From positions 1-64,000 of the forward strand of contig NZ_CP117710.1 in assembly GCF_028622875.1 (NCBI RefSeq): a stretch of 64,000 bases of DNA, read 5' to 3'. Under the pieces are notes generated by a model, which was not told the DNA's origin, searched no databases, and was given only the letters and a program-made list of their open reading frames with translations. Shown here one piece after another: positions 1,790 to 28,665 of the stretch. Both the position numbers and the translations under genes were made by a program. The DNA comes from Streptomyces sp. MMBL 11-1 (GTDB lineage Bacteria > Actinomycetota > Actinomycetes > Streptomycetales > Streptomycetaceae). Positions within the stretch are counted from its first letter, which is position 1; each line of letters starts with the position of its first letter.

Positions 1790-2221
1790 CTCTGGCCAGC
1801 GGCCTGTGGACACGGGCCGACGGGCGGGCGGCGGGCGGTTGAGGGCGAGCAGGACCCGGTGGCCGGCAGGTCCTCGGCGAGACCGGCGCGGCACCCCCGG
1901 GCCGGATCGTCACGGACGTACGGAACAGCGGGCGGACAACACCGGCGGGGCAGGGCGCCGGCCAGCGCCAGGCGCAGCGTGTCCAGACCCCCGGCGACTG
2001 CTTGTCCGGGCGCGGGCGGCCGGCCCGGGCGGGCGGTGTCCGGGGCGGCGGCCAGGTGCTCGAGGGCACGGGGCGGTCGACCACATGCCGGTCACCTCGT
2101 CGGCGAGCAGCAGGTGCTCGGTGTGCTCGCTCAGCGCCTTCACCCAGCCGGCCAGTTGCAGGACGCGTGCGGCGCGGACGGGCAGCGACACCGGCAACTC
2201 CAACACGTGGTCCTTCGGCAC
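1790..2221 (-). pseudogene. Relic of the large paralogous family seen at 2287-5768 and 6114-9966
   Basis: Reading several frames gives VRAARVLQLAGWVKALSEH, HTEHLLLADEVTGMWSTAP and LDTLRLALAGALP. These align with ERAARVLEL, HAPHLLLPDGSAGGRWPAAP and LDALLGLALRHGDVV in the middle of the two large paralogues. Only about 150 residues remain, out of frame, directly downstream of the intact stop of the first paralogue at 2287. It looks like the leftover of a third copy that was deleted. No start or stop can be assigned. Confidence 0.5.
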
Positions 2222-2286
2222 CGGCCAGGCACACCGTGGCCGGGCGAGCGGAGACCGGAGGACGGCCGGCGGGCGGGCCCGGCCGG

Positions 2287-5200
2287 TCAGTTCGTCGTTG
2301 CCGGAGCGTGAGCGAGGTCCACCTCGCCGGCTTCGACCAGGGCACGGCGCAGCTGCGCGGCCTCGGCCGGGCGGTCGGGCGCCGGCAATGCCTCGGCGGC
2401 CTGCAGCAGGGCGCGGGCGTGATGGCGGACGTCGCTGTCCTGCGCGCCATCCGGGGCGGGGCGGGTGAGCAGGTGCACGGCCAGGAGGAGGGCGTCGGGC
2501 TCACGGGGGTGCGCGGCGGCGCGTTCGGCGATTCGGCCGGCGTCCGTCTGGGCCGGGGTGTGGGCGGCGCTGCGCCGGGCCAGGGGCAGCCAGACCTCGT
2601 CCGGCAGCGACGCGGCGAAGTCGCCGGCGCCCGCGAGCGCCCCGGGCGGCAGGCCGGCCTCCAGAGCGGCGGTCCACCAGATCTGCTCGGTGTCCACCGA
2701 GGTCCGGTCGAGCGGGCGCAGGGAGGTGAACAGGGCGAGGTACCCGAGGAAGCCGGAGGCGGCCTCGGCGCCGTCCGGACCGGTGGCCAACTCCCGCCAG
2801 GCGGCCGTGGGGTCGCCGAGCAGGCTGTCATGGCCGGTCAGGAGCGCGTGCACCACGCGGAAGGCGAGCGTCCCGGCGGGTTCTCCGCGCAGGGCGGCCA
2901 GGAGCTGGCGGCGGCCCAGGGCAGCGAGCAGCAGCGGATCGAGGCCGGGGCCGCGGCGGGCGTGCAGCCACGCGGCGGCCGGGGAGGGCCGGCCGGGGAC
3001 GAGCGCATACAGGTCGGGGTGGGCGGCGGTGAAGGCGGTGGCGCGGCGGTGGAGGAGAGGCAGGTGCTTGCCGAGCACGCCGGCGACCGGCTCGTCGCCG
3101 CCGCGGGCCTGAAGGACGGCGGCGACCAGGTCCAGGACGTCGCCGGGCATCTGGCCGTCCCGGGGTGCCTGGGCGGCGGCGTAGTCCAGGAGGCAGTCCA
3201 GCGCACGCACCGCCGGGTGGGACTCCGGCAGGCCTGCGGGCAGTTGCTGTTCCTCTCCGGCCGTGCGGCCGGCGGCGGGCGTTGCCGGGCCGCCGGCAGA
3301 CACCGACGGGGCCGGGGGCGGGGCGGCGGGCCGGGTGAGCGGCTCGACGAGGGCATGCAGCCGGTCCAGGGCGGCCGGGAGGTGACCGCCGAGGCCGTCC
3401 CCGGTGCGCCACACGAAGGCCAGCAGGCCGGACCACGCCCGGCCGGCGTGCTCGCCCGCGTCGGGGATGTGCGGGTCGGCGGGGGCGGGCAGGGTTCGGC
3501 TGAGCGTGAGAGCGGCGAGCACGGCTTCGGCCGGGCCGGCGGGGAAGGCCCCGGGACGGCGGACGGCGGTCGCGGCGGCGGCGAGGTAGAACGCGCCGAG
3601 CTCCGGCAGGACGAGGGCGGTGAGCAGGGCGGGGACGTCGGCGGTCCAGGCGGCCGGATCGGCGGCCACCAGGCGCTGCAGCACGATCGCGTAGCCGGCG
3701 GCGCCCGCGTCCGGGGCGCCGGCCAGGGCGGCCGCGGCCGCGAGCGTGCCGCCCGCGGCGGCCAGTTCCCGCAGGTCCTCCAGTTCGAGGGCGGTGCGAT
3801 GACGCGAGAGGGGGCGGGCGGCACTGCGCGGGTCGGGCGGCCCGTCCGGCCGGGCCCGGTGCGACGGGTCGAGGCCGGCCAGCAGGGGCGCGGGCAGGAC
3901 CGGTGACCAGGCCCCGGCCCGCTCGGCGCCGGCGGGCCGTACGCGCTCCACCTCGGCGGCCGCGGGCGCGCAGAGCGCCTGACGGGCCCGCCGGTGAAGG
4001 TCGGCGGTGCGCTCGGGCGGGCAGGTGGTGAGCACGAGGTCGACCAGGCGGGCGCCTTCCGGCGTCGGGTGGCCGGCCAGCAGCCGGACCGTGGCCTCGA
4101 CCGCCAGGTCCCACCACTGCCCCGCCTCTTCGTCCCCGGCGCCGGGGTGCGGCGGGTGGGCGGCCAGGTGGGCGGCGAGCACCCGGTCGTGCACTCCTGT
4201 GTCCGCAGCCGCGATCCTCGGCCACGCCCGCAGACGGTCGGCCAGCGGCAGGCCGGCCGCGGCGTCCGCCGCGGCGAGGTCGAGAACCGCGCGGGCCAGC
4301 AGCGGGCCCATGTCCAGGACCGGGCCCAAAAAGAGCGTGGCGTCCAGGACGCGGACCTCGTCCAGGTCGACGAACTCCGACCAGGGCCGCCGGCCGGACG
4401 CTTCGATGTCGCGGCACAGCAGGCCCGCCAGCGCGCCGCGGACCGCCCGGGCCCACCGGAACGAGCCGCCACCGTCGCCGGCGTCCGGGGTGACGCTCAC
4501 CACCAGCTCCCGCAGCAGGCCCGTGATGTCGTGCTCGGGCAGGCGGGCCGCCCACTGGCGCTCCAGGACGTCGGTCAGCTCGGGCAGCGGACGGCGCTCG
4601 GCGTGCGCGCGCCAGCGCTCGTCCCGCCAGGCCCGCCCAGCCGGCGGTGCCCGAGGTCGACGGCGTCCTTCAGCAGAGCTCCTCGGCGACCAGGACCCAG
4701 TCCCCGTCCGTGCGGGCACCGGGAGGTGCCCGCCCAGCCGGCCACGAGCCGGCGCGGCACGTCCGCGTGCTTCGGCCGGCCCCTCCGCCCGGCCCGAAGA
4801 CAGCACGTGCGGGAGCAGCCCGCGCACCCCGGCCGGGCGGAGGCGCCGGCGTCGGCCAGGCGCAGCAGCGCGCCGAGAACGCGGGGCCGGCCGGGGCGAG
4901 CCTCGGCGGCGTGGTCGGCCAGCCACAGCCCGGCGGCCTTGGGGGCGGTGGCGGCCAGGTGCTCCAGGAACGGGGCCGCCGGCCAGGTACCGGCCCTCTC
5001 GTCGGTGAGCAGCAGGTTGCGGCGCGTGCTCCTCAAGGGCCCCCAGCCAGCCGCGGCCGGGCGGAGCCGAAGAAGAACCGCGGTGGCGCGCGGGTCCGCC
5101 CAGCCGGCCAGCTCTCGCGCCTCCGCCCCGCCCGGCTCCCTCAGGGCGGCCAACTCCAGGACGCGGGCGGCGCGGCCGTGCAGCGGCACAGCAACTCCCG

Positions 5201-5768
5201 CGCCAGCAGCAGCACCTCCGGTAGACAGAAGCCGCGCCGGCCCGATCGGCCTCGCCGCCGTGCAGCGTGCCGACGTCCTCCCGTACACCTCGCCCCACCG
5301 ACAAGAGCCTGCCTCTGTGGTAGGCGCCGAGCGCCACGCCCATCAGCCGCTCGGCGATCCCGCCGCCCTCGCCCGGTGGAAGCCCCCCGGGCGCGTCAGC
5401 TGCCCGCGCAGCACCCCGCCGCCCGGCGTACCCGGCCGAGCGGCGGCCTGCGGCGGCGCGCGGCGGACGGGCCGGGAAGAGTGTCCCACGCGGCGAGCAG
5501 GTCCTTCGCCGCGGACTTCAGGCCACCGCGTCCGGGGCGCCCGGCAGGCTCAGCAGGGCGTCCGCCGCACCGCGCAGGCACGACTCCGCGACCTCCGCCG
5601 GCCGCTCAGCCCGGTACCGGCCAGGACCCGGCGGGCGTCCCGCAGCAGACACCAGCGCCCGCACGCCGGCAGCGCCCTGCGCCATCAGGGCGGCGGCCAG
5701 GACCTCGTCGACCACCGGCAGCTGTATGTCGGGCAGTTCGCCGCCGGCGGCGGCATCATGGTGCTCAC
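2287..5768 (-). pseudogene. Large helical protein, paralogue A of an unrecognised family (3' 790 codons intact, 5' part frameshifted)
   Basis: An Ala/Leu/Arg-rich protein of about 1160 residues with no transmembrane segment and no Walker or nuclease motif I can see. It reads like a long alpha-helical solenoid. The frame is continuous from about 4650 to the TGA at 2287. Upstream, parts are spread over three frames: DEVLAAALMAQGAAGVRAL near the N-terminus, LRGAADALLSLPGAP, GTLHGGEADRAGAASVYR, RAARVLELAALREPGG and WPAAPFLEHLAATAP. The proposed start is GTG at 5768, because the 17 bases before it match those before the GTG of paralogue B. A relic of the family lies downstream and a small HTH gene upstream. 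Alternative: an intact gene with assembly indels. Function unknown; do not read more into it than a repeated, large, plasmid-type protein. Confidence 0.6.
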
Positions 5769-5829
5769 CGGTGCACCGTAGAGGCCACCGGGCGCAGCGG
5801 TGGGCGAGAACCGGCCGGTCGCGGCCGTC

Positions 5830-6069
5830 CTTGCCGTCCTGCCGTCTTGTCCGTCCTGCCGTCAGCGTGCGGCGTGGCGGCGGGTGTCCCCCGCCGCGGG
5901 TGCGCAGGGTGGTGCCGGCCTCGGTGAGCAGGCGGTGGACGAATCCTAACTGCGCCCCGCAACTGTGCGCGAGGGTACGGACCGAGGCCCCCGCGGTGTA
6001 CGCCTTCTTCAGCTCGGCCCCGAGCTTGAGCCGTGGCCGGCCCGGTGACGTGGACGCGGCGCCCAGCAT
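5830..6069 (-). CDS. Small helix-turn-helix protein
   Basis: ATG at 6069, preceded by GAGAGAAGGGAGCCGGC (purine-rich ribosome site). The N-terminal 65 residues contain KKAYTAGASVRTLAH and GFVHRLLTEAGTTLRTRGG, the pattern of small actinobacterial HTH proteins in which the second helix reads G-F-V-H-R-L-L. It lies 45 bp downstream of the TAG of paralogue B and upstream of paralogue A. No stop codon occurs after the HTH. The same frame runs on past 5768 into the N-terminal coding of paralogue A, so the 3' boundary given is arbitrary. Either an indel removed the stop or the HTH is fused to A. DNA binding is inferred from the HTH only. Confidence 0.5.
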
Positions 6070-6113
6070 GCCGGCTCCCTTCTCTCCCTCTCCTCGGTGT
6101 CCGGGCGGGACGG

Positions 6114-9100
6114 CTACTGATGGCGGGCGGCGGCGACGTCGCCGGCGTTGACCAGCGCCCTCCTCAACCCCTGCCACGCCGGGGGGCGTTCGGGAGCGGG
6201 CAGAGCGGTCGTCGCGTCCAGCAGGGGTACGGGCGTGCCCGCGTACGGCGGTGTCGGTCCACGTCCCGGGTGCGTCGGGTGACCAAGCAGTTCGGCGAGC
6301 AGCAGGGCGTCCTGGCTGCCGGGGTGGGCGGCGGCGCGTTCGGCGCCGAGGTCGGCGTGGCTCAGGGCCGGGGAGTGCTCGGCGCTGGTACGCGGCAGCT
6401 CCAGCCACACCGGCTCGTCGACGGCCGTTCGGCGAACGCGCCCGTCCCGCCAGCGCCGCCGGCGGCAGGCCGGCGGCCAGCGCGGCACGCCACAGTCCAC
6501 AGCAGCCCGCGTCCGCGCCTGCTCGGCCGGCGGGAGCGGGCGCGCGGCGCCGGTCCGCGGCACACGGAGGGCGATCGCCTCCAGCAGGACTGAGACCGCG
6601 GCCGCCGATTCTCGTCACCGTCGGCGTCGCCCAACTGCGTCCACCAGGCGCGGGTTCGCCCAGGAGGGATGGATCGGTCAGCCAGCGCGGCCGCGGTGTG
6701 GCCCGCGGCGTCGCGCGCCAGTCCGCCGGCGCCGCGCAGCGCGCCGATCAGGTCGGCGCGGTCCAGGGCCGCGAGCAGCGGCGGGCTGGGCGGTCCCCAG
6801 CGCAGCCACGACCCGGCCGGCGAGGGCCCCTGCGCGGGGATCCGGTACAGGGCGGTGCGGTGGACGGCGGTGAAGTCCGGGGCGTAGTCGTGCAGGGCGG
6901 GCAGCCGTACGCCGATCGCGTCGGCCACCGCGTCCTGGGCGGCGGCCGCGGGGATCGCCCGGCCACCGCCTGGAGCACCTCGGCCGGCATCTGTTCACGG
7001 GCGCGCGCCTGGTGGAAGGGCGTACTCGAGCAGGCACCCCAGCGCCCGGACCCGCGGGTCCGACCCCAGCAGTACCGGACCCCCGGGCCTCCGGCCGCGG
7101 GGGAGCGGTCCGCGGGAAGCCCCCGGGCCGGACCGACGGCGCGGCGGAGCCGCCGGCGGGAACGGGACCTGTCTCCGGCCTCCTCTGCGTCGGCGGCGGG
7201 ATCGGTGAGCTCGGCGGTCAGGGCGTGCAGGTGGGCCAGGACGTCCTTCTCCTGGCCGGGTCCAGGACGGCGTCGGTGCGCCACATGGCGGTCAGCAGGT
7301 CGGCCAGGCCTGGTCGGCGAATGTCCAGCCCGGTGCCCCGGTCCGCGGCCGTCTTCTGGGCGGCTGTGGCAGCCGGGGCGTCGAGGGCGCGGCGCAGGTC
7401 GAGCGCGCGGTGACGGCGCCGGTGAGCGTCTTGCCGGGGAAGGCGCCGGGGGCGGTCGGCGTGGCCGGCGGCCGCGGCGAGGTAGAACGCGCCGAGCTCC
7501 GGTGTCTTGAGGGCGTTCAGGGATCGCGGGCACGTCGGCCAGTCCAGGCGGCCGGGGCGTCGGCGACGAGGTGGTGCAGGACCATCGCGTAGCCGTCGTC
7601 GCCTGCGTCCGGTGCCGCGGCCAGCGCGGCGGGGCGGCCGCCGCCGGCCCGCGGGCTTCGGCCGCCTCGGCCAGATCTTCGGCGGTCAGGGCGGTGGTCG
7701 CCGTGACCGGCACCGGCGCGGGGACGGTGCGCGGATCCGCAGGGCCGGCAGGCTTCAACGGGCGCACCCGCTCCAGCACCGGTCCCAAGCCGGCCAGCAC
7801 ACGCGCGGGCAGCAGCGGCGACCAGTCCCACACCCGCAACCACGAGGCGAGCGGCTCCTTGGTGCCGTCCACCTGGCCGGCACCGGCGGGAAGGACCTGC
7901 TCCAGCTCGGCGGGCGCAGGAGGGCCAGCCGAGCGCGGTGCGCACCCGCGTCTCCAACTCCCCGGCGCGCTTCGGCGGGCTTGTGCTGAACACGAGGTCG
8001 ACGAGGCGGGCCGGCTCCGGGGCGGGCCGTGCGGCCACCAGGACGCTCCGTGAGCTCGATGGCCCGCTCCCACCACTCGTTCACCACCTCGGCGGGCACC
8101 GGGGTCTGCCCGGCGGGCGCAGGTGCGGGCGGCCGGGCGGCGAGGTGAGCGGCCATCAGGCGGTCCGTGCAGCGGGGCGTCGACGGCGGCCACCCGGCGC
8201 AACGCGCGCGTGCGCACCCCCAGGGCGATGCCGGCGTCCGCGTCGGCCTCAGCCAGTGTCCAGGACGGTGCGCGCCAGCCGGGGGCCGCCGTTACGCGGC
8301 CGTTGTCGCCCGCGTGCACCCCGTCGAGGTCGCCGCGGAACACCAGCGGCCGGGCGGCGGCGGGCCAGCAGCGCGACGTCGCGGGCGAGCAGGCCGGCCA
8401 GCACCGCCCGGATCATCGCGACGTCCCCGTGCGCGGGGCCGCTGGGGCCGGACGGGTAGGCCGTCAGCGCGACCTCGGCGCAGCAGTTCCGCGGCGTCGT
8501 GCCGGGCAGCCGTGCAGCCGTCTGCTCGGCGACCCGCTCCCGCATCTCCTCCTCGGCCGCCAGCGCGGCCGCCATCGCCGCTTGGGCGGCGGCCGGATCC
8601 CCGGCCGCCGCCAGATCCTCGGCCGCCTCCTCGGCGGCGGCCACCCGCTCGGCGACAGCGTGCAGGCTCAGGTGGCCGGCGTGCTCGTCCTCGACCGCAC
8701 CGGCCAGCAGCCCCCTCGGCCGCGATGATCCAATCCCGTGTCCGTTCCGCCCGCGGGACCGTACGGGCCCAGCGGGCCGCCAGGCACAGCGTCGCCCCCG
8801 CCGCCGGGCCCCCGCCGTCGCGCAACCCCGCGGTGTCGGCCAGGACGGCGCGCACCAGGGCGGCGCCGACGACGTCGCCGTGGCGCAGCGCGAGGCCCAG
8901 CAGCGCATCCAGAGCCGGGCGGCCGGCCGCCGCCACCTGCTGCGCCCGGCTGAGCGCCGGGTCCTGGCCGTCCGGTGCCGTCAGCCACGCCCGGACGCCG
9001 TCCGGGTCGGTGCCGGCGACGTCGTCGAGGAACGGGGCGGCCGGCCACCGCCCGCCGGCCGACCCGTCCGGCAGCAGCAGGTGCGGGGCGTGCTCGGCCA

Positions 9101-9966
9101 GGACGCCCCACCACACCGGTGCCGGGCCGGAACGGAAGAAGTACGCCTCGGCGCGCGGGTCCGCCCAGCGGGCGAGCTCGGCAGCCTCAGCCGCGCCCGG
9201 GTCCTTCAGCGCGGTGAGCTCAAGGACCCGGGCCGCGCGCTCGGCCAGCGGCACCAGCAGTTCCCGGGCCGCGTGCAGGAGTTCGGTGTACAGGAGGCGG
9301 GCATCGTCGGGGCCGGCGCTACGGCCGTGCAGGATGCCCGACGCCAGCCCGTAGACGACTCCCCACACGTCCAGCGCCTGCTCCTGGGCCGCGCCCAGCG
9401 TCACGCCCGTCAGCCGCTCGATGACGCCGCGGGCCCGGCCCCGGTGGTAGCCGCCCGGGCGCTCCAGCTCGCGCGCACCACCTCCGCCGCCCACATCACC
9501 CGCTCCCACCGCGCCCCCGCCCCGCCCGGCACGCCCAGGGGATCACCGGAGCCGTCACCGGCGGCAACGGCACCGCCGGACGGCGTCTGCTGGACGGCGG
9601 CCCCCTCGGCCGTCTCCCCGATCGAGCCGGAACCCGCGGCAGGCGGCGTCCCCGACGGCGTCCAGCGCCGCCACCAGGTCCTGCGCCGCGGCCTGCAGGC
9701 CCACCGACCGCGGGGCCCCGGGCAGACCGAGCAGCGCGTCCGCCGCGGACCCGCACACACGCCGCGGCCACCTCCGCCGGCCGCGCGAACCCCGCCCCCG
9801 TCAACGCGCGCCGCGCATCGAGCAGCAGCCCCAACGCCCGCACGCCCGCATCACCCTGCGCCGCCAGCGCACCGGCCAGGACCTCGTCCACCTCCGCCGG
9901 CACTACCCCGGACAACTCCGCCCCACGCCCCGCGTCCCCGCCGACCGGCGGCATCTCGATACCCAC
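6114..9966 (-). pseudogene. Large helical protein, paralogue B, many frameshifts
   Basis: Second copy of the family at 2287-5768, about 1280 residues if all frames are joined, ending at the TAG at 6114 (C-terminus RRALVNAGDVAAARHQ, matching RRALVEAGEVDLA in A). GTG at 9966 begins MGIEMPPVGG. Further landmarks are VDEVLAGALAAQGDAGVRAL, SGILHGRS, RAARVLELTALKDPGA, HAPHLLLPDG, RWPAAPFLDDVAGTDP and LPALHDYAPDFTAVHRTALY. At least eight frame changes are needed. The ILHG segment vaguely recalls HEPN-type histidine motifs but lacks the Arg four to six residues before it, so I do not claim HEPN. Function unknown. The 5' flank is nearly identical to that of A, which suggests duplication of gene plus leader. 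Confidence 0.55.
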
Positions 9967-13073: not shown

Positions 13074-13119
13074 CTGAGGCACCCCGGCGCCCGAAGGTGC
13101 GGGCGCCGGGGTGCCTCAG
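13074..13119. terminator. Bidirectional hairpin between convergent genes
   Basis: A perfect 20-bp inverted repeat (arm CTGAGGCACCCCGGCGCCCG at 13074-13093, loop AAGGTG, second arm 13100-13119). It lies between the plus-strand regulator ending at 12884 and the minus-strand gene whose stop (13116-13118) falls inside the right arm. There is no clear T-run, as usual in Streptomyces. Confidence 0.85.
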
Positions 13120-13892
13120 GCGGTGCGGGAGTGGAGCTGGATGACGGTGCGCTGGCCGGTCGCGCGTTCACCGAGGCGGTAGATGGGCGAGTTGGAGAGC
13201 TTGTCGACGAACTCCAGCCAGCCCTCCTCGACGAGCTGGCCGCGGACGCGGGAGAACAGGCTCGGTGTCCAGCCCAGCTCGTCCTCCGCCAGCTTGCGAG
13301 CCGTCACACGGACCGCGCCGCTCGGCTCCTTCGGCATGAGCGCGTACAGCTGCAGCACGAGGCGCTGGTTCGGGGTCAGGGCTTGCGAGCGGCGCAGGAT
13401 CTGTCGCGCCAGCGCCTGCGAGTCGTTGGCGGTCATCACGACTGGTTCCCCCTTGCGGGTCCGTGGGCAAGACCTGGAATATCGGGCGGGTTGTAGGCCC
13501 GGATGGCTTTCGCGCTGCTCGGCGGAGGTCCCCTGGCTGGCGAGGTAGGGGGTCACCTTGTAGAACTTCTGGCGGCCGAACTCGTCAGCGAAGAACAGCA
13601 GCCGGCGTTTGACGAGGGTGCGGATGATCCGGCCCAGGGCGTCGCCCGTCATCCCGTTACGCCGGGCGATGTAGGCGGTGGTCTTCATGACGGGCTGGTC
13701 GAATCCGGGAGCCGCGGCTACGAACCACTGCAGGATCCGGAACTCCCGGTCGGTCAGGCCGCCCTGCTTCCTGGGCACGGCGGCGAGGGCTTCGAGGCGG
13801 ACGTTGTCGATGGTGCTGTAGGGGCCGATGTAGCCGAAACGGGTCTGCGGCTCGCCGCGGCCGTCGTGCCGTTGGTGCGCGGAGCGCGGCAT
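13116..13892 (-). CDS. Winged-helix (MarR/replication-initiator-like) protein (258 aa)
   Basis: ATG at 13892 with GGAGAC before it. Two winged-helix modules can be read. Residues about 35-115: LTDREFRILQWFVAAAPGFD, then KTTAYIARRNGMTGDALGRI, then LVKRRLLFFADEFGRQKFYK. Residues about 160-250: LTPNQRLVLQLYALMPKEPS, VTARKLAEDELGWTPSLFSR and GQLVEEGWLEFVDKL. This tandem wing architecture occurs in MarR-like regulators and in actinobacterial plasmid replication proteins. Palindromes at 13940-14017 directly upstream could be its operators or an origin. The assignment as a replication protein is a guess from context; DNA binding is well supported. Confidence 0.65.
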   Translation of the reverse strand: MPRSAHQRHDGRGEPQTRFGYIGPYSTIDNVRLEALAAVPRKQGGLTDREFRILQWFVAAAPGFDQPVMKTTAYIARRNGMTGDALGRIIRTLVKRRLLFFADEFGRQKFYKVTPYLASQGTSAEQRESHPGLQPARYSRSCPRTRKGEPVVMTANDSQALARQILRRSQALTPNQRLVLQLYALMPKEPSGAVRVTARKLAEDELGWTPSLFSRVRGQLVEEGWLEFVDKLSNSPIYRLGERATGQRTVIQLHSRTA

Positions 13893-13939
13893 CGGGAGTC
13901 TCCGAATCCCTCGACATGTCCTATGAGTACAGGCGTCAC

Positions 13940-14115
13940 GATATCCCGTGCCGGATCCGTGAACTGACTGGACATGTACTTCCAGTACATGCATGCCGTT
14001 CCCGCGACCGGGATATCCGGACCGGGGAGTCTGAATGAACCGCTCCGCGAAACGGCATGATGCGGTCCACCGACCGGTACATCCGATCGCCCAACCGGTA
14101 TCGGAACCTGCGAAA
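13940..14115. promoter_or_regulatory. Palindrome-rich region upstream of the winged-helix gene (operator or origin candidate)
   Basis: Two nested inverted repeats. GATATCCCG (13940-13948) pairs with CGGGATATC (14009-14017), and between them lies the perfect palindrome CATGTACT-TCC-AGTACATG (13973-13991). Further right, ACCGGTA recurs (about 14078 and 14096). The stretch is clearly less GC-rich than its surroundings. An autoregulatory operator is the simplest reading; an iteron-type origin is possible. Confidence 0.55.
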
Positions 14116-14606
14116 CACCAGGTCAGACACAGTTCCGGCGTGGCTCTGTCTGTACGTATCCAGGAGCGCGCGCACCACCGGGTCCTACGTTCACAACATT
14201 CCCCGCGGCCATCGGCGCGTCGCCCCGCCCACCCGCACGACCGCCCCCGACGGACCCCTGACGCCGACCCCGGCCACAGCACGTGCAGGACCGCGGCGCC
14301 GCGCGTCCGCCCCGACGGGGAGGAGGCATCCCAGCCGTGCGGCCGGCCACGGCCTCACGGCGGCACCCCCCACCGGCACCGGCCACGCTTCCCTGTCGTC
14401 CCGTCACCGCCCGCACCACCCGCCCCCGGGACCGCTGCCGCCCCCCACGAGCCGCACCTTCGTACGCCGCCGCACGCGCGAAGCGAGCCCAGCCCCCCCC
14501 ACCCCGTACCCCCCGGGCTCAACCACCGCCCAGACGCGCGAGGACGGCACGACGGGCTCTCCGCCGCCCGGCCGGCGACCGGGCCGGGAGCGGGAGCGGG
14601 AGCGGC

Positions 14607-14760
14607 GTCAGCGGCGGTGGCCCAGGGAGGGCAGCCCCGCCGAGGCCGTACGCACGCTCCGGCCCCGGCGGGCAGAACGGCGGGTCAGCGGCGGTGGCCC
14701 AGGGAGGGCAGCCCCGCCGAGGCCGTACGGACGCTCCGGCCCCGGCGGGCGGAACGGCGG
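14607..14760. repeat. 77-bp direct tandem repeat, two copies
   Basis: Unit 14607-14683 is repeated at 14684-14760 with two substitutions. The array ends four bases before the TGA (14765-14767) of the adjacent minus-strand gene, so it lies immediately downstream of that gene. The flanks (about 14120-14600) show no gene that I can support. Confidence 0.85.
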
Positions 14761-14764
14761 GCCT

Positions 14765-16575: not shown

Positions 16576-16829
16576 GTGCCCACGAAAATCGGCAGCAGCT
16601 CCGGCTTCCGACGCCCTGCTCACCGAGCTAGTCGGCCCCACCGGCCGTCGTTGCCAGCCTCGACACCTACCCGACCCGCTGGGCGGGATGCCACACCGGT
16701 AGTCCCGGCCGCCGCCCCGGTGGCAGGTTCGGACCATCGCCCGCAGGGGCTCACCACATCGGTCTGTACCGCAGTACCGTGATGCGCCACACCTCTGTCT
16801 CGCACGTGGATGGAAGCAGGATGTCATGA
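16576..16829 (+). pseudogene. Small frameshifted gene overlapping the Uma2 start
   Basis: GTG at 16576 behind GAGAGGACCCCCACA gives VPTKIGSSS. Sense then continues in other frames as SDALLTELVGPTG and VASLDTYPTRWAGCHTGSPG through AHHIGLYRSTVMRHTS and HVDGSRMS, ending at a TGA (16827-16829). That stop overlaps the ATG of the Uma2 gene. The phrase TRWAGC followed by a Gly/Pro-rich tract and LYR looks like a short conserved actinobacterial protein, but I cannot name it. Two single-base indels would restore one frame of about 84 residues. Confidence 0.45.
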
Positions 16830-17383
16830 CCAGCGCACCGGACTACAGCCACGGCATCAACGCCGAGCGCGCCCTGAAGTTCGCCGTGCAGCGGATCCGT
16901 GGGGATCGCGTCCAGATCATCGAGGGGATCATCGAACCGGTGTCACCGACGTGGGACCACGAGCGCGCCGCGAAGCTCGTACGCCGTCAGATCGAGAACC
17001 GGGTGGACGAGCTCGGCTGCGTCGAAGGGTCCGGGAATCTGGATCTGCCCGGCTCGTCGAACTGGTACATCCCCGATATCGCTGTCGTGCCGGAGGAACT
17101 GGCGAAGGGAGGCAGCGCGCTTCTCCCCGACCAGACACTGCTGATCGTGGAAGTGACGTCCGAGTCGAACGCGGAGACGGACCGGATCGTCAAGCGGCGC
17201 AGGTACGCCGAGTACGGCGCGCCGCTGTACCTGCTCGTCGACCGCATCGACCACAGCGTGACGCTGTTCTCGGAACCGGGAAAGCTGGGATACACCCGCG
17301 TGGACGGACCCTACCCGTTCGGGACGGTCGTCCGTCTTCCGGCACCGTTCGAACTCGACATCGACACGAGCGCGCTCACCTGA
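16826..17383 (+). CDS. Uma2 family (DUF820) putative restriction endonuclease (185 aa)
   Basis: PD-(D/E)xK-fold protein of the Uma2 group, at its usual length. Seen in order: VQIIEGIIEPVSPTWDHERA (N-terminal helix and strand), SSNWYIPDIAVVPEE with the catalytic Asp after Pro, LLIVEVTSESNAETDRIVK with the Glu-x-Thr strand, then KRRRYAEYGAPLYLLVD. These match the D...E...K layout of Uma2. ATG overlaps the stop of the short gene before it. Uma2 genes are abundant on Streptomyces chromosomes and plasmids. The biological substrate is unknown; a nuclease role is inferred from the fold. Confidence 0.9.
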   Translation: MTSAPDYSHGINAERALKFAVQRIRGDRVQIIEGIIEPVSPTWDHERAAKLVRRQIENRVDELGCVEGSGNLDLPGSSNWYIPDIAVVPEELAKGGSALLPDQTLLIVEVTSESNAETDRIVKRRRYAEYGAPLYLLVDRIDHSVTLFSEPGKLGYTRVDGPYPFGTVVRLPAPFELDIDTSALT

Positions 17384-20394: not shown

Positions 20395-21381
20395 ATGGAG
20401 TTCCGGCCCATCACACGGACCCCCGGGGCATTCCAGCAGTCCGTGACCGCTGACGACATCGAGGCGATCTGCCGCCGCGCCTTCGGGCCGGACACCAAGG
20501 TGGCGTCCGCGGCCGAACTCGGCACCGGGATGTACAACTCGACGTACCGGGTCACCGTCGCGGGCCGGGAACAGGCGGTGATTGTTCGGATCGCCCCCGA
20601 GCCCGAGCGCCAGTTCACCTCGGAGCGGGCATTGATGCGCAACGAGTACGCGAGCCTGCCGTATCTCCCGGCGCTCGCGCCTCTTCTGCCGCGCGTCCTC
20701 GTCGCCGACTTCACCCACGAGGTCGTCGGCCGGGACTACATGGTGCAGTCGTTCCTCGACGGCGTCCCGGCGACCGAGCACCTGCGCACGTACCCGCGGT
20801 CGCTGTGGCCGGTGTACTACCGGCAGCTCGGCAAGATCGCGCGGCGTGTCCACGACGTCCCTGGTCCTGCCTTCGGCCCGATCGCCGGCCCCGCATTCGG
20901 CAGGTGGAGCGAGGCGGTCGTGACGTCCTTGGAGGACATCGCCACAGACCTGGAGGGCGTCGGCCTCGACGCATCCGATGTACGCAAGGTCATCACGGCT
21001 GCACGCCGCCACCAGGCCGTCCTCGATGAGATCACCGAGCCCCGGATGCTGGCTGGGGATCTGTGGCTCCCCAATACACAGCTTGATCATCAGGCCCCGG
21101 AGCCCGTGATCACTGGCGCGTACGACTTCGACCGGACCTGTTGGGGCGATCCGGCGGCTGATTGGACCATCCGCATGGTCACGGCCAAATCTGACGAGCG
21201 CACGACGTTCTGGGACACCTATGGCTCCTTGGACCAGTCCGAAGCCGCAGCCTGGCGTTCGAAGATCTACGAAGCCCGGCACCTCGGCGCCATCCGTCTC
21301 GAGCGACACCGCCTCGGCAATGCGGACGGCGTCCGGGACAGTTACGACACGTTCGCGGGCATTTTGGCCGCCGTGGTCTGA
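20395..21381 (+). CDS. APH-type (aminoglycoside/choline kinase-like) phosphotransferase (328 aa)
   Basis: ATG at 20395 after AGGGGAAGGACGACGCTC. Protein-kinase-like fold of the APH family: N-lobe with AAELGTGMYNSTYRVTVAG and EQAVIVRIAPEPERQ (Lys-equivalent position occupied by Arg), helix LMRNEYASLPYLPALAPLLP, hinge VGRDYMVQSFLDGVPATEHL, catalytic loop MLAGDLWLPNTQ (GDLW with Asp then Asn) and the metal-binding GAYDFDRTCWGDPAADW. The catalytic loop lacks the His before GD (HGD in typical APH), so the substrate may differ. A broken paralogue lies in opposite orientation beyond the STAND NTPase. Such genes on plasmids are not proof of antibiotic resistance. Confidence 0.8.
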   Translation: MEFRPITRTPGAFQQSVTADDIEAICRRAFGPDTKVASAAELGTGMYNSTYRVTVAGREQAVIVRIAPEPERQFTSERALMRNEYASLPYLPALAPLLPRVLVADFTHEVVGRDYMVQSFLDGVPATEHLRTYPRSLWPVYYRQLGKIARRVHDVPGPAFGPIAGPAFGRWSEAVVTSLEDIATDLEGVGLDASDVRKVITAARRHQAVLDEITEPRMLAGDLWLPNTQLDHQAPEPVITGAYDFDRTCWGDPAADWTIRMVTAKSDERTTFWDTYGSLDQSEAAAWRSKIYEARHLGAIRLERHRLGNADGVRDSYDTFAGILAAVV

Positions 21382-21512: not shown

Positions 21513-24500
21513 TCAGTTCAGACCGAAGGACTCCTCCAGTTGGTGCTGAACCTGCAGCGCTTCCTGCCTGCCCGCAGCGGAGAGAGCATCGAGGAGACGA
21601 CGGGCGCGTTCAGCGTCAGGCCCCGTGCGATGGACGTCGTCGGATAGGACCTGTGCGAGGAACGGCACGACCCGGCGCGCCGAGACGGCGACGGCATCCG
21701 ACCGGTCACCCAAGACGTCGAGCACGAGGCTGACCTCCTGGCCGCTGAACAGGCCGTGGGCGTCGAGAACGTCCAGGAGGCGGTCGGCCAGATGCGGCCG
21801 GGCTTTGTGGAGAGGAGCCCACGCACGGATGAGATCGCGCGCCTGCGCAGGCGTCCAGGGCACTCCGCGCGCCGGTAGCGGCAGCAGCGCCTGCCCGAGC
21901 GCCTTGCTGCCCCGGGATGCGAAGCGGTCCAGCATGCCTGGCCACATCACGAGAAGCTTCCGGACGCGCGCCGGGCTGGTGGCCTGCTGTGCGAGGGCGC
22001 TGAGAAGCCCCGCGAGCGCGTGCGGGTCCGAATCGAACACGTTCAGGTATGCCTCGAGCCGGGCCTGGTCGCCGTCCAGAGCGAGCTCGGCGGTGATCGT
22101 GTCGTGGGTGTCTCGCCACTCTGCTGAGTGGCTGGCCATCGCTTCGGACTGCCGTATCCAGGTGAGCCGGTCGTGATGGGCCATCGCCTCGGCAAGGTGC
22201 CGAGCTGCCCCGCTGTGCGGGCAGTCGAAGTTGGCGGCGAGGTAAGCGGCTGCTGCGGCTGCGGCGACGAGCCGGAGATCCACGAACGGTACGGCCTCGG
22301 TGAGGGCGGCATCCACCGGCCCAGTGAGCCGAAATGGCCGTCGGGGGGTGTACATGTCTTCCTGGGCCGTCAGGCCGGCGGTGACCACCATCTCGGTCAA
22401 CGCGTTGAGGCTCGTAGTGTGCAGGGCGTCGTCCGGGCCGGTGCACACCCCCGCGCTCCACAGCTGGGTGATCGCCGAACACAGCAGCGACCGCACCTCA
22501 ATGTAGGCGCTGCCAGCGAGCTGGAGCACGGCCGCGCGTACGGTTTCCTCGGCGGTGTCGGCCTGTTGGAAAAGTGCTGGGGCTGCCACGAGGACTGGCA
22601 GGGCCGTTGCCGCCGAGCGGTCTGCAGCCCGGGGATCAACGGATTCGTGTACTACGTCGCAGTCGGCCGTGACAGCGGATGGCGTGGCCTCGGCTGCTGT
22701 GAGCAGCTCGTTCGCCGCCCATCGCACCTGCTCAGGCTCCACCCCGCCGGCTGTTGCGTTCGCTGACCGCAGGACGACGGCTGCAACCATGGGGCCGATG
22801 GCGTCCAGTTCCTTCGGCCGGCCGCTTGGTGAGAGCCGGTGAACGCGGTCGAGGGCCTCCCAGCGCTCGAACAGCCCCCGCGCATCCGCCTTGCCGTCAC
22901 CATCGCGAGCGACTTCGGCATCACGCAGCAACGCGAACCGCTCGACGAACTCCCGGAAGGCGGCACCACCGTCCGACTGCTCCATGCGTCTGCGGTTGAC
23001 GGCTTCGTTCACCAATGCACGGCCGTCGCGGTCCGGGACAGTCACGGTCCCGGGGACTGCCCGACCGTCGCTGTCGGGGAGAGTCACGATCCGGTAGTTC
23101 GAACTGTCCAGTAGCAGCGCCGCCTCCGCGATCACGCCATCCGAAGCCGCGTCGCCCTCACCGGTGGTGCCACGGTGCTGCTCGTGCTCGGCCGTCAAGC
23201 GGCGTCCCATCTCCCGGAAGGCGTCCTGCCGTTCGGCGGACGCGCGCAGGACGATCAGCGGAACCGCGTAGGTCAGCTGCACGGCATTGGAGGACGGCAG
23301 CGCCCACAGATCCGACTGGCCGAGCACCGGATCCAGTTCGTCGGTGACACGCCGGGCATGGAGGGCCAGCACCCCTGCGGCGACGGCCACCAGGGCGATA
23401 CTGCGCCCGCAACCGAGTACCCGCTGCATCAGCTCTCCAAGGCTGGCCCCCGCCGCCGCCTGGGCGTGGGCCCAACGGCGCAGCGCGGCGAGCGCCGCGA
23501 TCGCCGGTCCCGGCCCCAGCGCCCCGGCCCACGGCCATTCCCACGACCGGGCGGTGCCTGCGAACACAGCCTCGCCCTGATCGAGCGGCCAGACCAGCGA
23601 GTACTCCCGGCGTCCGCGCTCTGTCTCGATGCGCGTGACCGCTTCGGTGGCGGCATCGGCGACCTGCCCGATCAGGAGCAGGCCCTGGTCCGGCGCATGC
23701 GTGAGGAGAGCGCCGAACGGTCCGAGCTCAGCGGGGTCCGGTGCGTCGGCCGGAATCCACGGCGGAACCGAGGGCGTCGTGAACGGCGCGACGGGTTTCG
23801 GCCGGTAGCGAGATGGCCAACCTATGTCGCGCACACCTTCCCGAAACGGAACCGGCATGAGGCTATCGGGATGCTCCACGTAGACGGAGTGCGCCATGAG
23901 CGCGAGCAGCTCCGGTTCGTGGCGGGCGAGGTTGGTGGCAAGACGCTGCTCTTCCACAACACGCTGTACCTCTGCGGGGGCGTGGTTCGAGAGATGCTCG
24001 AAGAGCTGCCGACTGGTCGCGTCCAGGTGCTGGGCCGTGCAGGCGAGCGCGATCGCCGTCGGCGCGGCTGTGTCGGCTCCGTTGTGGAACCATCTGGTCA
24101 CCGCGTGAGGCACACGAGCAGCCAGGTCATCGTCTATCCCGTCGGCCGCCGCCGGCAGCCATCTGCCCAGCAGTCGCAGTGCGCCGCCTGCTGCGACATC
24201 GTCAAGGTCGTCGGCGTGGAGGGTCAGAAACCTGAGGATCGGCAGGGCAGCCACGACGCTGCGCAGTCGGAGCCGGGCCGCAGTCACCAGCGCGCGGCCG
24301 CCGTCGGCCAGCAGCTCATCGTCCAGCCCCGCCAGGACCGGCTCCGGGTGGCCGAGCTCGAACAGCGCTTCGAAGGGAAGGTCCTGCCATCGAGCGCCGT
24401 CCAGCTCGGACAGTTCCTGTGCGGCGGTTGTGATCCACCTCCAGGCGGCCAGGACCTTGGCAGGGGAACGGCGTCCTGCGCGGGCCAGGCGCAACTGAGC

Positions 24501-26363
24501 CGCGATCCGGATACCCCGCAGCAGCCGCCGTGGCTGCCGCACGGCAGCCACGGCCGGCGCCGACTCCTCGCACAGCAGGAAGGCGACGGCGTAGTCCAGC
24601 ATCGCATCGTGAGCGAAGCCGAGCTCGGATCGCTTCTGCTTCAGGATGCCGTCGCTGACAAGGCCGTACTTCGCCGGACCGGTGCCGGACTGCGGCAGGC
24701 GTGCGAACCGCTGCCCATTGACGACGACGGCCTCCGACAAGTCCAGGTACACATCGCTGCGATCGTCGGGGTGTCCCAGCCCGGGACGCTCGCTCCCTCC
24801 CCGGCGCACCAAGTGGTCGTACACGAAGTCGGCGACATCCTCCTCACCGAGAATCTGCTGGGGGTTGGCTCCCACATCGAGCAGCCTCACCAGCAGGTCT
24901 ACCGTGTAGAGGGTGCGCAGCAGCTGGGCCGGACGAGGCAAGCGCTCCATCGGGGCCAGGGCCGGGAAGGCGTCCAGGACTTCGCGGAGCTCGCCGTCCG
25001 AAAGACCGCCGATCCGCATCCTCTCGACCCGCCCGTCCCTGGCTGCCAGATACTCACTCACGTCATCGGCGGCCTGCTCGCGGGCGACCGCGACCACATG
25101 CCAAAGCGGCTCGCCCTCCTCGTCGCGGGGCAGCAACGAGAGCAGGCGTCTGAGAAGTTTCCCGCCGTCGGACAGGGCTTGTTCGGCGCCGTCGATGACG
25201 AACACGCGGCGGCCGGTCGGGGCACCGCGCAGGGCAGTAGCGAGGCGTCCTGGTCCCCCGAGTTCACCGTCGATGTCGGCGACCGTCCCCCAGGTGTGCT
25301 CGGTGAGCGAGAAGCCGACCACCGTCACCTGGTCCTGCTGCCGTATCTCTCCGGCGACTGCGCGGGTGAGCGCGCTCTTCCCCGTGCCCGCAGGGCCGGT
25401 CACGAGCACCAGCTTGTGCGCGTCGATGGTGCTGGCGAGCTTGGCCCTCAGCGCGACGCGGTTGAGCTTTCGGTTCCTGCCGAGCCGGTCCCTCACCTGC
25501 GGCCGGCTCAGGAAGACATCCGTCCACTCCTCGACCGCTTCCAGCTCAAGGCGAGCCGGTGGATCCCCGCGCAGCACCAGCCCCTTGGCCGACAGTCGGT
25601 TCCGGAGCATCTGCCGGTCGACAGACCCGCTACGCGGCCCCCACTCTTCCGCTAGGTCCTCGATGATCCGGAACACCTCGGGGGCGTCATAGTCGGCGCC
25701 CGCCGGGATCAGCCGCTCTTCCAGCGCAGCACACAGTGCGGTGTACCGGGCGCCGGGGCCCTCGGGCTCGATCTGGACGACAAGGCGCCGCACAATCCGA
25801 AACGCGGTGAGTTCCACCAACTCCGGCACCAGAGCCGAGCCGCCGGACTTCGTCATGGCGTCGGTGATCGTCGTCTTCAGATGCTTCCACACACGGTGGT
25901 ACTGCCCCCCGAGTGGCGGCAGCGCCTCCTGGAGGAAATTCTCAAGCGAGGCTTGCGCCGCGGCGGTGGCTGCGAGCTCACGCAGGTCTTCCAAGTCCTT
26001 GGACGGGCCGGTGGCGGTCACACCGAAACGGCGGCGCTCCGCGTCGACATCGTCACCGAACCGTTCCAGGCTCTCCAGGCACTGGCTGATCAGGCCCTTC
26101 CATGCCTTCGCCGACGGCACAATCTCCAGTGTGCGCTTGATCTGCCGTTCGAGAACGAGCAGGTACGGGCCCTTCCAATTGCTCACGACGACGTCGTCGA
26201 GGGGAGCCATGGACGCCTTTTGCAGCTCCACCGCATCCGGAATGACCTCAAGTCCAGGGACAGGTACGCAGCACAGCAGCGCCACCAGATCCAACGCCGC
26301 GGCACGGTACTCGAAGACCGTGCCGGCACCACCCGAAGAGATCGGGGACGCACCCTCCGCCAC
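21513..26363 (-). CDS. Giant STAND NTPase with putative Cap4/DUF4297-type N-terminal nuclease, Avs-like defence protein (1616 aa)
   Basis: GTG at 26363 with AAGGGACGTACAG before it; intact over 4.85 kb. Residues 10-80 read GGAGTVFEYRAAALDLVALL, then LDDVVVSNWKGPYLLVLERQ followed by IKRT. The DD...QxK layout resembles the PD-(D/E)xK nuclease domain DUF4297 (Cap4, some Avs proteins). The ATPase has Walker A GPAGTGKS at about 323-330 and Walker B VFVIDGAEQ at about 387-395, followed by a winged-helix-like segment and ADFVYDHLVRRGG. The remaining 1000 or more residues are helical-repeat-like and would be the sensor. Avs proteins recognise phage proteins, oligomerise and activate the N-terminal effector. 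The role here is inferred from this architecture and from the neighbouring mobile debris. The nuclease call is less certain than the NTPase. Confidence 0.75.
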   Translation of the reverse strand: MAEGASPISSGGAGTVFEYRAAALDLVALLCCVPVPGLEVIPDAVELQKASMAPLDDVVVSNWKGPYLLVLERQIKRTLEIVPSAKAWKGLISQCLESLERFGDDVDAERRRFGVTATGPSKDLEDLRELAATAAAQASLENFLQEALPPLGGQYHRVWKHLKTTITDAMTKSGGSALVPELVELTAFRIVRRLVVQIEPEGPGARYTALCAALEERLIPAGADYDAPEVFRIIEDLAEEWGPRSGSVDRQMLRNRLSAKGLVLRGDPPARLELEAVEEWTDVFLSRPQVRDRLGRNRKLNRVALRAKLASTIDAHKLVLVTGPAGTGKSALTRAVAGEIRQQDQVTVVGFSLTEHTWGTVADIDGELGGPGRLATALRGAPTGRRVFVIDGAEQALSDGGKLLRRLLSLLPRDEEGEPLWHVVAVAREQAADDVSEYLAARDGRVERMRIGGLSDGELREVLDAFPALAPMERLPRPAQLLRTLYTVDLLVRLLDVGANPQQILGEEDVADFVYDHLVRRGGSERPGLGHPDDRSDVYLDLSEAVVVNGQRFARLPQSGTGPAKYGLVSDGILKQKRSELGFAHDAMLDYAVAFLLCEESAPAVAAVRQPRRLLRGIRIAAQLRLARAGRRSPAKVLAAWRWITTAAQELSELDGARWQDLPFEALFELGHPEPVLAGLDDELLADGGRALVTAARLRLRSVVAALPILRFLTLHADDLDDVAAGGALRLLGRWLPAAADGIDDDLAARVPHAVTRWFHNGADTAAPTAIALACTAQHLDATSRQLFEHLSNHAPAEVQRVVEEQRLATNLARHEPELLALMAHSVYVEHPDSLMPVPFREGVRDIGWPSRYRPKPVAPFTTPSVPPWIPADAPDPAELGPFGALLTHAPDQGLLLIGQVADAATEAVTRIETERGRREYSLVWPLDQGEAVFAGTARSWEWPWAGALGPGPAIAALAALRRWAHAQAAAGASLGELMQRVLGCGRSIALVAVAAGVLALHARRVTDELDPVLGQSDLWALPSSNAVQLTYAVPLIVLRASAERQDAFREMGRRLTAEHEQHRGTTGEGDAASDGVIAEAALLLDSSNYRIVTLPDSDGRAVPGTVTVPDRDGRALVNEAVNRRRMEQSDGGAAFREFVERFALLRDAEVARDGDGKADARGLFERWEALDRVHRLSPSGRPKELDAIGPMVAAVVLRSANATAGGVEPEQVRWAANELLTAAEATPSAVTADCDVVHESVDPRAADRSAATALPVLVAAPALFQQADTAEETVRAAVLQLAGSAYIEVRSLLCSAITQLWSAGVCTGPDDALHTTSLNALTEMVVTAGLTAQEDMYTPRRPFRLTGPVDAALTEAVPFVDLRLVAAAAAAAYLAANFDCPHSGAARHLAEAMAHHDRLTWIRQSEAMASHSAEWRDTHDTITAELALDGDQARLEAYLNVFDSDPHALAGLLSALAQQATSPARVRKLLVMWPGMLDRFASRGSKALGQALLPLPARGVPWTPAQARDLIRAWAPLHKARPHLADRLLDVLDAHGLFSGQEVSLVLDVLGDRSDAVAVSARRVVPFLAQVLSDDVHRTGPDAERARRLLDALSAAGRQEALQVQHQLEESFGLN

Positions 26364-26707
26364 CTGTACGTCCCTTCCCCGGCCGTATGGCCGATCGCTG
26401 CCTCACGCTGATGAGGAAGCGTAGCGAGCTCAGCCAACTAGCGAAGCTTGTACGGGTTATGGGGCCCCTCGAACATACATGCCGAACCTGATCAGCATGG
26501 TCACGGCGCGCATCCACTGAGCTGATCTACCACCACCCCACCGTCCGTACCGCGTACTGCGGTCGAGGACAGAACCGGCCTGGTCCACCGGGTCCAGAGT
26601 GTCAACGGCGGCTACGACAGCGAGATCGCGGTCCGGCTGACGCTATCGTCGGGCTCCGTGACGCCAGGCACGGAGCCCGACAACATCACTCCCGACATCC
26701 GACTTGC
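26364..26707. other. Gene-free spacer upstream of the STAND NTPase
   Basis: About 340 bp holding the promoter region of the NTPase gene and, at 26700-26710, the junction where the APH pseudogene is cut. A less GC-rich stretch (about 26420-26470) may hold the promoter, but I see no clear -35/-10 pair. Confidence 0.4.
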
Positions 26708-27391
26708 CTAGTGAACGGTCCACAGGTCGCCGGTCAGCAGGCTCGGCTCGGCGACCTCGTCCAGCACGGCGCGGTCGTGCGCGGCCGCCGCGGCGACCTT
26801 CCGCACGTCGGCCGCGTCCAGGCCGGCGTCGTCCAGGTCGGCGGCGATCTCCTCCAGCGACGTGATCATCGCCTCGCTCCAGGTCCCGTACCCCGGGCCG
26901 TTGACGGGCCCGACGTGCGGGCCCCGCACGTCGTGCACGGAGCGGGTGATGGCGCCCAGTTGCCGGAAGAACGTCGGCCACACGGTGCGCGGGTATGTTC
27001 CCAGTTGCTCCGGAGCCGGGACGCCGTCCAGGTACGTCTGGATCATTCAGTCCCGGCCGATCACCTCGTGCGACCAGTCCGCCGCGATCACGCGTGGCAT
27101 CAGCGGCGCGATCACTGCCAGCCAGGGCACGGAGGCGTATTCGTTGCGCATCAACTGCTGCTCGGAACGGAACTGGCTGCCCGGCTCCGGCGCCACCCGC
27201 AGGATTACCGGCCTGTCCTGGCCGGCCAGCTCGACCTTGTACGTGCTGTTGTACATGCCCAGGCCCAGCTCGACGGCGGACAGCAGGCGGGACTCGGGAC
27301 CGAAGGCCCGGTCGCACACCGCCTTGATCTCCTCGGGGGGCAGCGACTGCTGGAACGCTCCAGTGGTGCGCTTGACCGGACGGAACTCCAT
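26708..27391 (-). pseudogene. APH-type kinase pseudogene, in-frame stop and truncated C-terminus
   Basis: Paralogue of the kinase at 20395. ATG at 27391 starts MEFRPVKRTTGAFQQSLPPE, parallel to MEFRPITRTPGAFQQSVTAD. The frame runs to VIGRD, hits TGA at 27047-27049 where the intact copy has Tyr in GRDYMVQ, and resumes in the same frame as MIQTYLDGVPAPEQLGTYPR. It ends as LLTGDLWTVH at a TAG (26708), losing everything after the catalytic loop. The metal-binding DFD region is therefore gone and the gene cannot be functional as an APH kinase. No frameshift is involved. Confidence 0.85.
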
Positions 27392-27551
27392 ACGACTCCT
27401 TACTACGGCGCTCAAACTCGGCGCCTTGGCGTGGCCCTGCACCGTGCCCTTGCTGATGCTATCGAGGGCGGCTGAACCGGAGCCTCAGCCGCAGCGAGAC
27501 GGTGCCTCCTGGCGTTGAGAATCCCAAAGGACCTTCAACGCCAGGGTTGTC

Positions 27552-27992
27552 TCAATTACATGAGCCGTACGGTGCCTTGCGGCTCGCGCTGTGCGGCAGC
27601 TGCCGCACAGCGCCGGCTCCCGCGACCTGTCGGCGCAGTCGTTCGATCTCGTCGTGCTGGGCGGCGAGCCGAGAAATGCCCAGAGCCTTGAACTCGGAGA
27701 GGGCTTCAATCTTTTGATCGCGGGCGAGAATCCGAGTCTTCAAGGTGGCGACCTCGGCCTTGAGCCGCTCGATCTGTGCGTCGCGCGGGTCAATGATCTC
27801 ACCGGCTTCTTGAAGCTCGGCGCGTCGGCGTTCGAACTCCTCGGCCAGATGCTGGTAGGTGCCGGGGCGCGCGGTGCCGTCGCGATTCTTCTTCGGGTAG
27901 AAGCCGGTGCGGGTGATACCGGCAAGAGAGGCGAGCGTCTTGAGGTCGCACTTGCCGCCCGGCGGGAGGTCTCCACCCAGCAGCCGTTCCAT
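27552..27992 (-). CDS. DUF6262/TnpC-like transposition accessory protein (146 aa)
   Basis: Sequence starts MERLLGGDLPPGGKCDLKTL and continues LASLAGITRTGFYPKKN, LAEEFERRRAELQEAGEI and a coiled coil DAQIERLKAEVATLKTRILA. This is the small HTH plus coiled-coil protein that accompanies the two tyrosine recombinases of Tn554-like elements (TnpC role). The upstream frame (NRNEAAVRAA) looks coding too, but has no usual start codon, so ATG at 27992 may be internal. It follows the recombinase remnant at 28051-28665 in the same direction. Probably a leftover of the element; its partner recombinases are incomplete. Confidence 0.6.
   Translation of the reverse strand: MERLLGGDLPPGGKCDLKTLASLAGITRTGFYPKKNRDGTARPGTYQHLAEEFERRRAELQEAGEIIDPRDAQIERLKAEVATLKTRILARDQKIEALSEFKALGISRLAAQHDEIERLRRQVAGAGAVRQLPHSASRKAPYGSCN
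27586..27613. terminator. 28-bp perfect palindrome
   Basis: Arms GCGCTGTGCGGCAG and CTGCCGCACAGCGC with no loop, inside the last 20 codons of the TnpC-like gene. Could be a terminator or part of the transposon end. Confidence 0.55.
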
Positions 27993-28050
27993 CGCGGCGC
28001 GGACGGCGGCTTCGTTGCGGTTCCGGTCGGTGGCGGTGAGCCGGGCCGTG

Positions 28051-28665
28051 TCAGTCGGCTCCCACGAGGTGCGCGCTGGTAGCGGAGTCGATCTCGGCGA
28101 CGACGCGAAGTGCGCGGTCGCGCTCAGGTTCGAGGCGCTTGCGCTCGCCCTTCGCGACGCGGCGGTTGGTGATGAAGTCCTCGATGGCGTCGGCCTGACG
28201 AGCCCACAGGGGCCGGTGGCAGGAGTGATGGGCGGCCTGCGGGCAGCGGGCGGAGTCGCACATGCCGATCAGGGGCTTCGTCGAGTTCGGGGTGCCGGCC
28301 AGCTTCAGGCACAGTGCCTTGGACGGGTCGCAAAACCAGCAGAAGTTCGCCGGGCCGATGTGGCGAGTGGCGGCCAGCTTGCGCAGGAGACTTTCCAGGT
28401 GGGCGTCGTCCTCAAGGATCTTCGGCGGCGTGCGCGCGGCTTCGTGTAGTACCGCGTCGATGTGGGCGAACAACTCGATGAGGCTTCTCGCACCCGGTCC
28501 CGCGGGCATCTGCCCGTTCTCGAACTCGCGGAACGCCTCAACGGTCAGGGCGACCTGGTTCTCCTCGTCAGCGGCTTCGACCTCGGCGAGGAAGAGCCGC
28601 TGTGAGCCACCGGGGCGCGCGGCGTATCCCTCCGTTGTGGCCACGCTGATGTGCTTGAGAGCCAA
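28051..28665 (-). pseudogene. Tyrosine recombinase (Tn554 TnpB-like) C-terminal remnant
   Basis: Begins with ELALKHISVATTEGYAARPG, the end of the catalytic domain of a Tn554-type tyrosine recombinase (the active-site Tyr is in TTEGY). It continues through the Cys-rich tail FCWFCDPSKALCLKL, MCDSARCPQAAHHSCHRPLW and RRVAKGERKRLEPERDRA. All of the recombinase before this point, with the catalytic Arg and His residues, is missing. The remnant abuts the stop of the next upstream gene at 28680, indicating a deletion junction. Not functional as a recombinase. Confidence 0.7.

Follow-up and report, generated by a model that had tools for sequence, protein, structure and literature searches.

An Avs4-lineage STAND receptor with a predicted nuclease head on a probable linear plasmid of Streptomyces sp. 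MMBL 11-1

The first 64 kb of the 398,978-bp contig NZ_CP117710.1 of Streptomyces sp. MMBL 11-1 (positions 1 to 64,000, hereafter the window) encode a STAND receptor with a nuclease-like head, a NACHT/STAND nucleoside triphosphatase (NTPase) module and a long helical sensor of the Avs4 lineage (Table 1). An earlier note, made from the letters alone, had proposed such an Avs-like protein, and this was supported, including by alignments to NLRC4 and NLRP3 and by homology to Avs4. The receptor architecture has good support. That it cuts DNA, defends the cell and recognises the portal is predicted, and a nuclease-headed STAND defence receptor is in our judgment highly probable.

The 4.85-kb frame of 1616 residues that the note had described, with no strand given, was confirmed as uninterrupted and lies on the minus strand. 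The G+C content by codon position is coding-like (0.77/0.50/0.81), and the frame is kept end to end in full-length relatives from plasmids of Streptomyces sp. NBC_01166 (locus L008, about 54% identity) and S. microflavus (L009, 43.3-45%). For these reasons, and because GGAAGGG precedes the GTG, we regard the frame as more than chance. An 826-aa plus-strand open reading frame (ORF) at 23175-25655, antisense and inside the gene, was taken as a shadow of the high G+C content. Close relatives are annotated merely as ATP-binding or hypothetical proteins. The motifs L55-D56-D57...Q74-I75-K76, GPAGTGKS with Lys329 and VFVIDGAEQ with Asp391 were found where they had been placed before.

The NACHT module is complete. 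The NLRC4 and NLRP3 alignments extend through residue 699-700 and cover a nucleotide-binding domain followed by a winged-helix and helical domain, as in NLRs, and both the P-loop GPAGTGKS and the Walker B DGAE are kept in close relatives. That the protein is instead a MalT-type STAND transcription regulator is very improbable, since no helix-turn-helix family is found among the 24 Pfam matches listed for it and the NLR and Avs4 matches rank higher.

Homology to Avs4 was established for the NTPase and, by way of sister sequences, for the sensor. By hhalign, the family aligned with Avs4 at 98.6 over 690 columns and a sensor profile of ten other family rows at 90.7 (E 1.2e-6, 754 columns), and the folds of the sensor and of Avs4 (PDB 8dgf) are collinear. 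Residues 640-1616 were modelled as nearly all helix, which agrees with the over 1000 residues of helical text noted earlier, except for a few short strands and the low confidence of the model. Several results weigh against this kinship. The sensor model is weak (predicted local distance difference test, pLDDT, 64; predicted template modelling score, pTM, 0.42). A sensor profile of the window's own clade (four sequences) gave no match to Avs4 (hhalign probability 0.4), nor did residues 1030-1616 alone (0.1 to 0.2), and residues 501-806 alone reached just 33.7. Similarly, the window protein scored 18.4 bits (21.4 in a second scan) against the NCBIfam Avs4 model NF041815, for which the cut-off is 1500. 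This model was above its cut-off in none of 198 genomes of the window's phylum.

Due to the place of the sensor in the Avs4 lineage, the portal protein is the first trigger candidate, and we give it about an even chance. The title of PDB entry 8dgf names an Avs4-portal complex, and according to a passage of PMC12931631 the effectors of Avs1-4 are nucleases and their triggers are terminase and portal proteins. The same machine with another trigger comes somewhat behind: a diverged sensor might bind terminase, some other structural protein of the phage or a host protein altered by infection. The C-terminal sensor half shares 16-25% identity with the seven remoter relatives to which it was compared and alone gives no Avs4 match; moreover, according to published accounts, Avs triggers include terminase, Ksap1 and JADA (Avs5), and bNACHT25 senses via DnaJ. 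The collinear fold and the sister-sequence match to the Avs4 sensor argue for the portal. The earlier note had called the sensor unfamiliar and perhaps directed at a phage protein with no Avs link so far; the unfamiliarity has given way to the Avs4 lineage, with the portal as first candidate, and the second part stands as the possible other target.

PD-(D/E)xK nucleases carry the pattern Glu...Asp...(E/Q)xK. In a model of a longer stretch that includes the head, its motif and helix-strand order fit their core (helix 13-31, strands 44-48, 57-64 and 67-74, helix 85-107, at mixed confidence). In the head alignment (24 rows representing 22 distinct genes, as L005/L044 and L006/L049 are each the same gene), G11, G14, Q48, D56 and D57 are invariant. 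The alignment did not include L050 and L057, which are pieces, below about 180 aa, of a single gene that lies in two frames. Eight heads carry K76 (the window, L008, L009, L012, L016, L017, L046 and L061), all with E18 and Q74. Against a nuclease stand the pLDDT of the head, 29 to 86 by blocks of ten within a longer folded stretch, the absence of Pfam matches (none for the window head with E of 10 or less), and the 14 of 22 distinct heads in which position 74 is A/G and position 76 is R instead of lysine.

These arginine heads, the absence of a nuclease family match and the occurrence of the head on other bodies are what would be explained if the head were an adaptor or oligomerisation domain. 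We consider this unlikely: the window and the seven other lysine heads keep E18, D57, Q74 and K76 with the helix-strand-strand-strand-helix order, and lysine heads are found on both sides of the body tree under a midpoint root, which suggests that the lysine state is older. Of the earlier term "Cap4-like", the motif and strand order stood, as a fit to the broad PD-(D/E)xK superfamily. Membership in Cap4/DUF4297 (PF14130) was rejected by sequence, with likeness confined to the motif: profiles reached 0.1-0.3 by hhalign against three PF14130 proteins, the same as the reversed control (six loci were found in the genus; the three over the cut-off were used and the three under it left out). Two further results were put down to chance: the head profile matched a small-terminase protein of a phage (0.021), and individual heads matched four unrelated Pfam families. 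The L008 head matched DUF626_VIII of PADLOC weakly (0.0017). No Avs4-type head was recognised when the lysine heads were compared with Avs4 residues 1-175 (hhalign 0.1).

The head is well supported, from comparison of sequences, as a distinct, exchangeable, putatively nuclease-type module on an Avs4-lineage receptor. It was found on other bodies in L012 (P-loop and repeats by eye, adjoining Lamassu genes), on NTPases matched as NPHP3-like (over the cut-off in L044, under it in L045), fused to a PQQ-type beta-propeller (L049:1345-3504; PF13360 1.3e-28) and on bodies with no Pfam match (L046 and L047); several of these loci are truncated. The window head shares 59% identity with the L012 head, which sits on an unrelated body, but 45% with the head of L008, whose body is the closest. 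Conversely, the receptor body carries trypsin-like heads in L040 (Trypsin_2 48.7 bits, over the cut-off) and L043 (24.7 bits, under), and short N-termini, by eye, in L002/L041 and L004. In a Hymenobacter protein (L061), a receptor-type lysine head is joined to an Avs4 body (PADLOC Avs4 1.2e-114), which ties the head, the window family and Avs4 together. A broken relative in two frames lies at L018:9857-11542 in Streptomyces sp. E2N166.

In a tree of 24 bodies, well-supported branches force two separate changes for the two trypsin-like heads. The arginine heads fall within one part, and lysine heads occur in the clade of the window protein as well as next to Avs4, in L061. With lysine heads on both sides, the tree suggests that the lysine state is the older one, as far as a midpoint root can indicate; the long branch L016 is of unsure place and several rows are of unlike composition. 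Copies (L042, L036, L034 and L028), proteins lacking the NTPase and sensor, and open frames below about 1300 aa were left out of the tree, and L062 was dropped from the rows compared.

Taken as a whole, the protein is likely an antiphage receptor of the STAND/Avs kind and Avs4 lineage that works as a single protein, with the following cycle, although we hold this less firmly than the nuclease-headed defence receptor as such. The sensor would bind a phage structural protein made late, most probably the portal; binding would open the NACHT/STAND module (residues 266-700) to ATP uptake and oligomerisation; and the gathered heads would become active PD-(D/E)xK nucleases that cut DNA, so that infection is stopped and the cell lost. 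DNA as substrate, oligomerisation, cell suicide and the portal trigger are steps that we infer.

Table 1. Features of the receptor gene and its immediate neighbours in the window.
Feature	Position	Strand	Basis or remark
STAND receptor gene	21513..26363	-	1616 aa, GTG start, 1616 uninterrupted codons
Head module, residues 1-265, predicted PD-(D/E)xK nuclease	25569..26363	-	Predicted model; head common to proteins with other bodies
Glu18, candidate helix-1 active-site residue	26310..26312	-	E in 8/8 Lys76 heads and 11/16 Arg76 rows
Asp56-Asp57, candidate metal-binding residue(s)	26193..26198	-	Both D in 24/24 head rows (22 distinct genes)
Glu72-x-Gln74-x-Lys76, candidate active-site strand	26136..26150	-	Q74 and K76 in 8/22 heads; E72 in 6/8 of these
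Linker and nucleotide-binding domain, residues 266-500	24864..25568	-	Profile and structure-library matches
P-loop GPAGTGKS, residues 323-330	25374..25397	-	Lys329 at 25377-25379
Walker B DGAE, residues 391-394	25182..25193	-	Sequence motif
Winged-helix and second helical domain, residues 501-700	24264..24863	-	NLRC4/NLRP3 alignments
Helical-repeat sensor, residues 701-1616, Avs4 lineage	21516..24263	-	Collinear fold, profile comparison
Putative ribosome-binding site GGAAGGG, purine-rich	26372..26378	-	8 nt ahead of GTG; inferred assignment
Left neighbour, APH-fold kinase gene (context, not system part)	20395..21381	+	PF01636 5.7e-15
Right neighbour, broken inverted paralogue of kinase gene	26708..27442	-	Two frames, shorter than left copy

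The contig is probably a linear plasmid, because positions 13116-14548 are 83% identical in nucleotides to a linear-plasmid record with an annotated RepL2. Directly after this stretch are two adjacent 83-base copies (14602-14761, 96% identity), and long diverged repeats lie near the left contig end at 2000-9900 (2321-4308 versus 6136-8287, 64%; 4920-5424 versus 8982-9492, 73%). The plasmid setting, together with nine relatives in plasmid records (from a search that covered plasmids only), would suit anti-plasmid defence or a developmental death switch in place of phage defence, as would the role of STAND proteins in conflict systems of multicellular bacteria, where a passage of PMC7159879 also places trypsin and restriction endonuclease domains. 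The kinship with Avs4 makes this quite unlikely, below even the adaptor head, as do the Gabija, Lamassu or restriction genes found close to several of the relatives; both favour phage defence.

The receptor is bracketed by the two kinase copies (20395-21066 versus 26720-27391, inverted, 70.6% nucleotide identity), and 27753-28656 contains DNA like a plasmid gene annotated as integrase. The "mobile debris" noted earlier is thus borne out by the integrase-like DNA and the broken kinase copy but not by a transposase, as none of ten ORFs tested by Pfam in the stretch from 16.8 to 28.7 kb gave a match to a transposase. It counts against the defence reading that the only defence-type match beside the receptor gene is a putative Uma2-type nuclease ORF 4 kb off (16826-17383, plus strand; PF05685 4.5e-22; PADLOC candidate PDC-S03 3.8e-14), the other neighbours having been scanned with Pfam only. 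Ten proteins chosen by hand were compared with defence systems; one lay in the window and the other nine at the loci of five relatives. The strong matches were GajA, GajB, LmuA, LmuB, a type IIG enzyme (IIG) and HEC-04; both L014 neighbours were weak (1.3e-7 and 6e-7), and the L012 NACHT protein had no match. We claim no defence enrichment, since the neighbours of L009, L013, L015 and L016 were unscanned and there was no random-gene control. No conserved partner gene was seen by eye beside L008 and L009. Elsewhere in the window are an ORF of 991 aa that matches a prokaryotic RING finger (53236-56211, minus strand; PF14447 1.5e-19) and is possibly part of a conflict system, an HU-like DNA-binding protein (47206-47484, minus strand; PF00216 2.6e-24) and a short ORF (58628-58924, plus strand) in which inspection by eye shows a likeness to the first frame of an IS3-type transposase.

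When 295 genomes of the genus were scanned with the family alignment, 21 matched with E of 1e-10 or better, which is a lower bound, as two candidates were scored per genome. Six had the model over its full span, one of them with an in-frame stop, four the body without this head, six the head only, one sensor pieces and four the NTPase only; the window's own genome was the only one of the six whole-model genomes with a lysine head. A profile search of genome contigs gave no locus with the single protein and three with the alignment.

A more speculative reading, which we hold to be less likely than not, is that one receptor lineage kept its sensor while changing its alarm output, from an older Glu-Asp-QxK nuclease head to a descendant head with lysine and glutamine replaced, with trypsin-like heads gained at least twice. 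The window protein would be a nuclease-state member that may sense the portal or a still unlinked phage protein. Since lysine and glutamine are replaced in all 14 descendant heads with the fold kept, these would work without standard nuclease chemistry and, if so, perhaps recruit a separate killer; the family lets one ask what a lysine-less head does. It also contains natural pairs in which one body bears different heads or one head is joined to different bodies, and these let one ask whether sensor and killing chemistry are independent modules. Finally, placing a large actinobacterial receptor in the Avs4 lineage gives a concrete testable trigger, the portal protein, for phages of antibiotic-producing bacteria.

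In the literature searched, where most subscription journals were outside coverage, titles and abstract openings held no description of the receptor family, and the name PDC-M54A was absent. PDC-M54A, a candidate of PADLOC that is predicted only, has a related head and NTPase and a model length of 1621-1657. It was matched by six of the eight lysine heads (5e-4 to 8e-9; not L009 or L016), but the window match (2.9e-8, without a PADLOC cut-off) spans only residues 137-378 of 1616 and no sensor. The Cap4 nuclease (PF14130) shares a D...QxK style motif by eye and no significant profile similarity with the window-type head. bNACHT25 and bNACHT32 belong to another clade than the window receptor and have a much shorter sensor. 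They resemble it in their NACHT module; their N-terminal PD-(D/E)XK DNase, of which an active-site Asp is needed according to a passage of PMC12169576, is a counterpart of the predicted head. Avs4 (AVAST type 4; PDB 8dgf; NF041815) differs in its head, which is unlike that of the window, and in the window score far below the 1500-bit cut-off. It resembles the window receptor in its homologous NTPase, in its sensor (homologous via sister sequences, and collinear), in length (1587 aa versus 1616) and in having a nuclease-type head, which in the window receptor is predicted.
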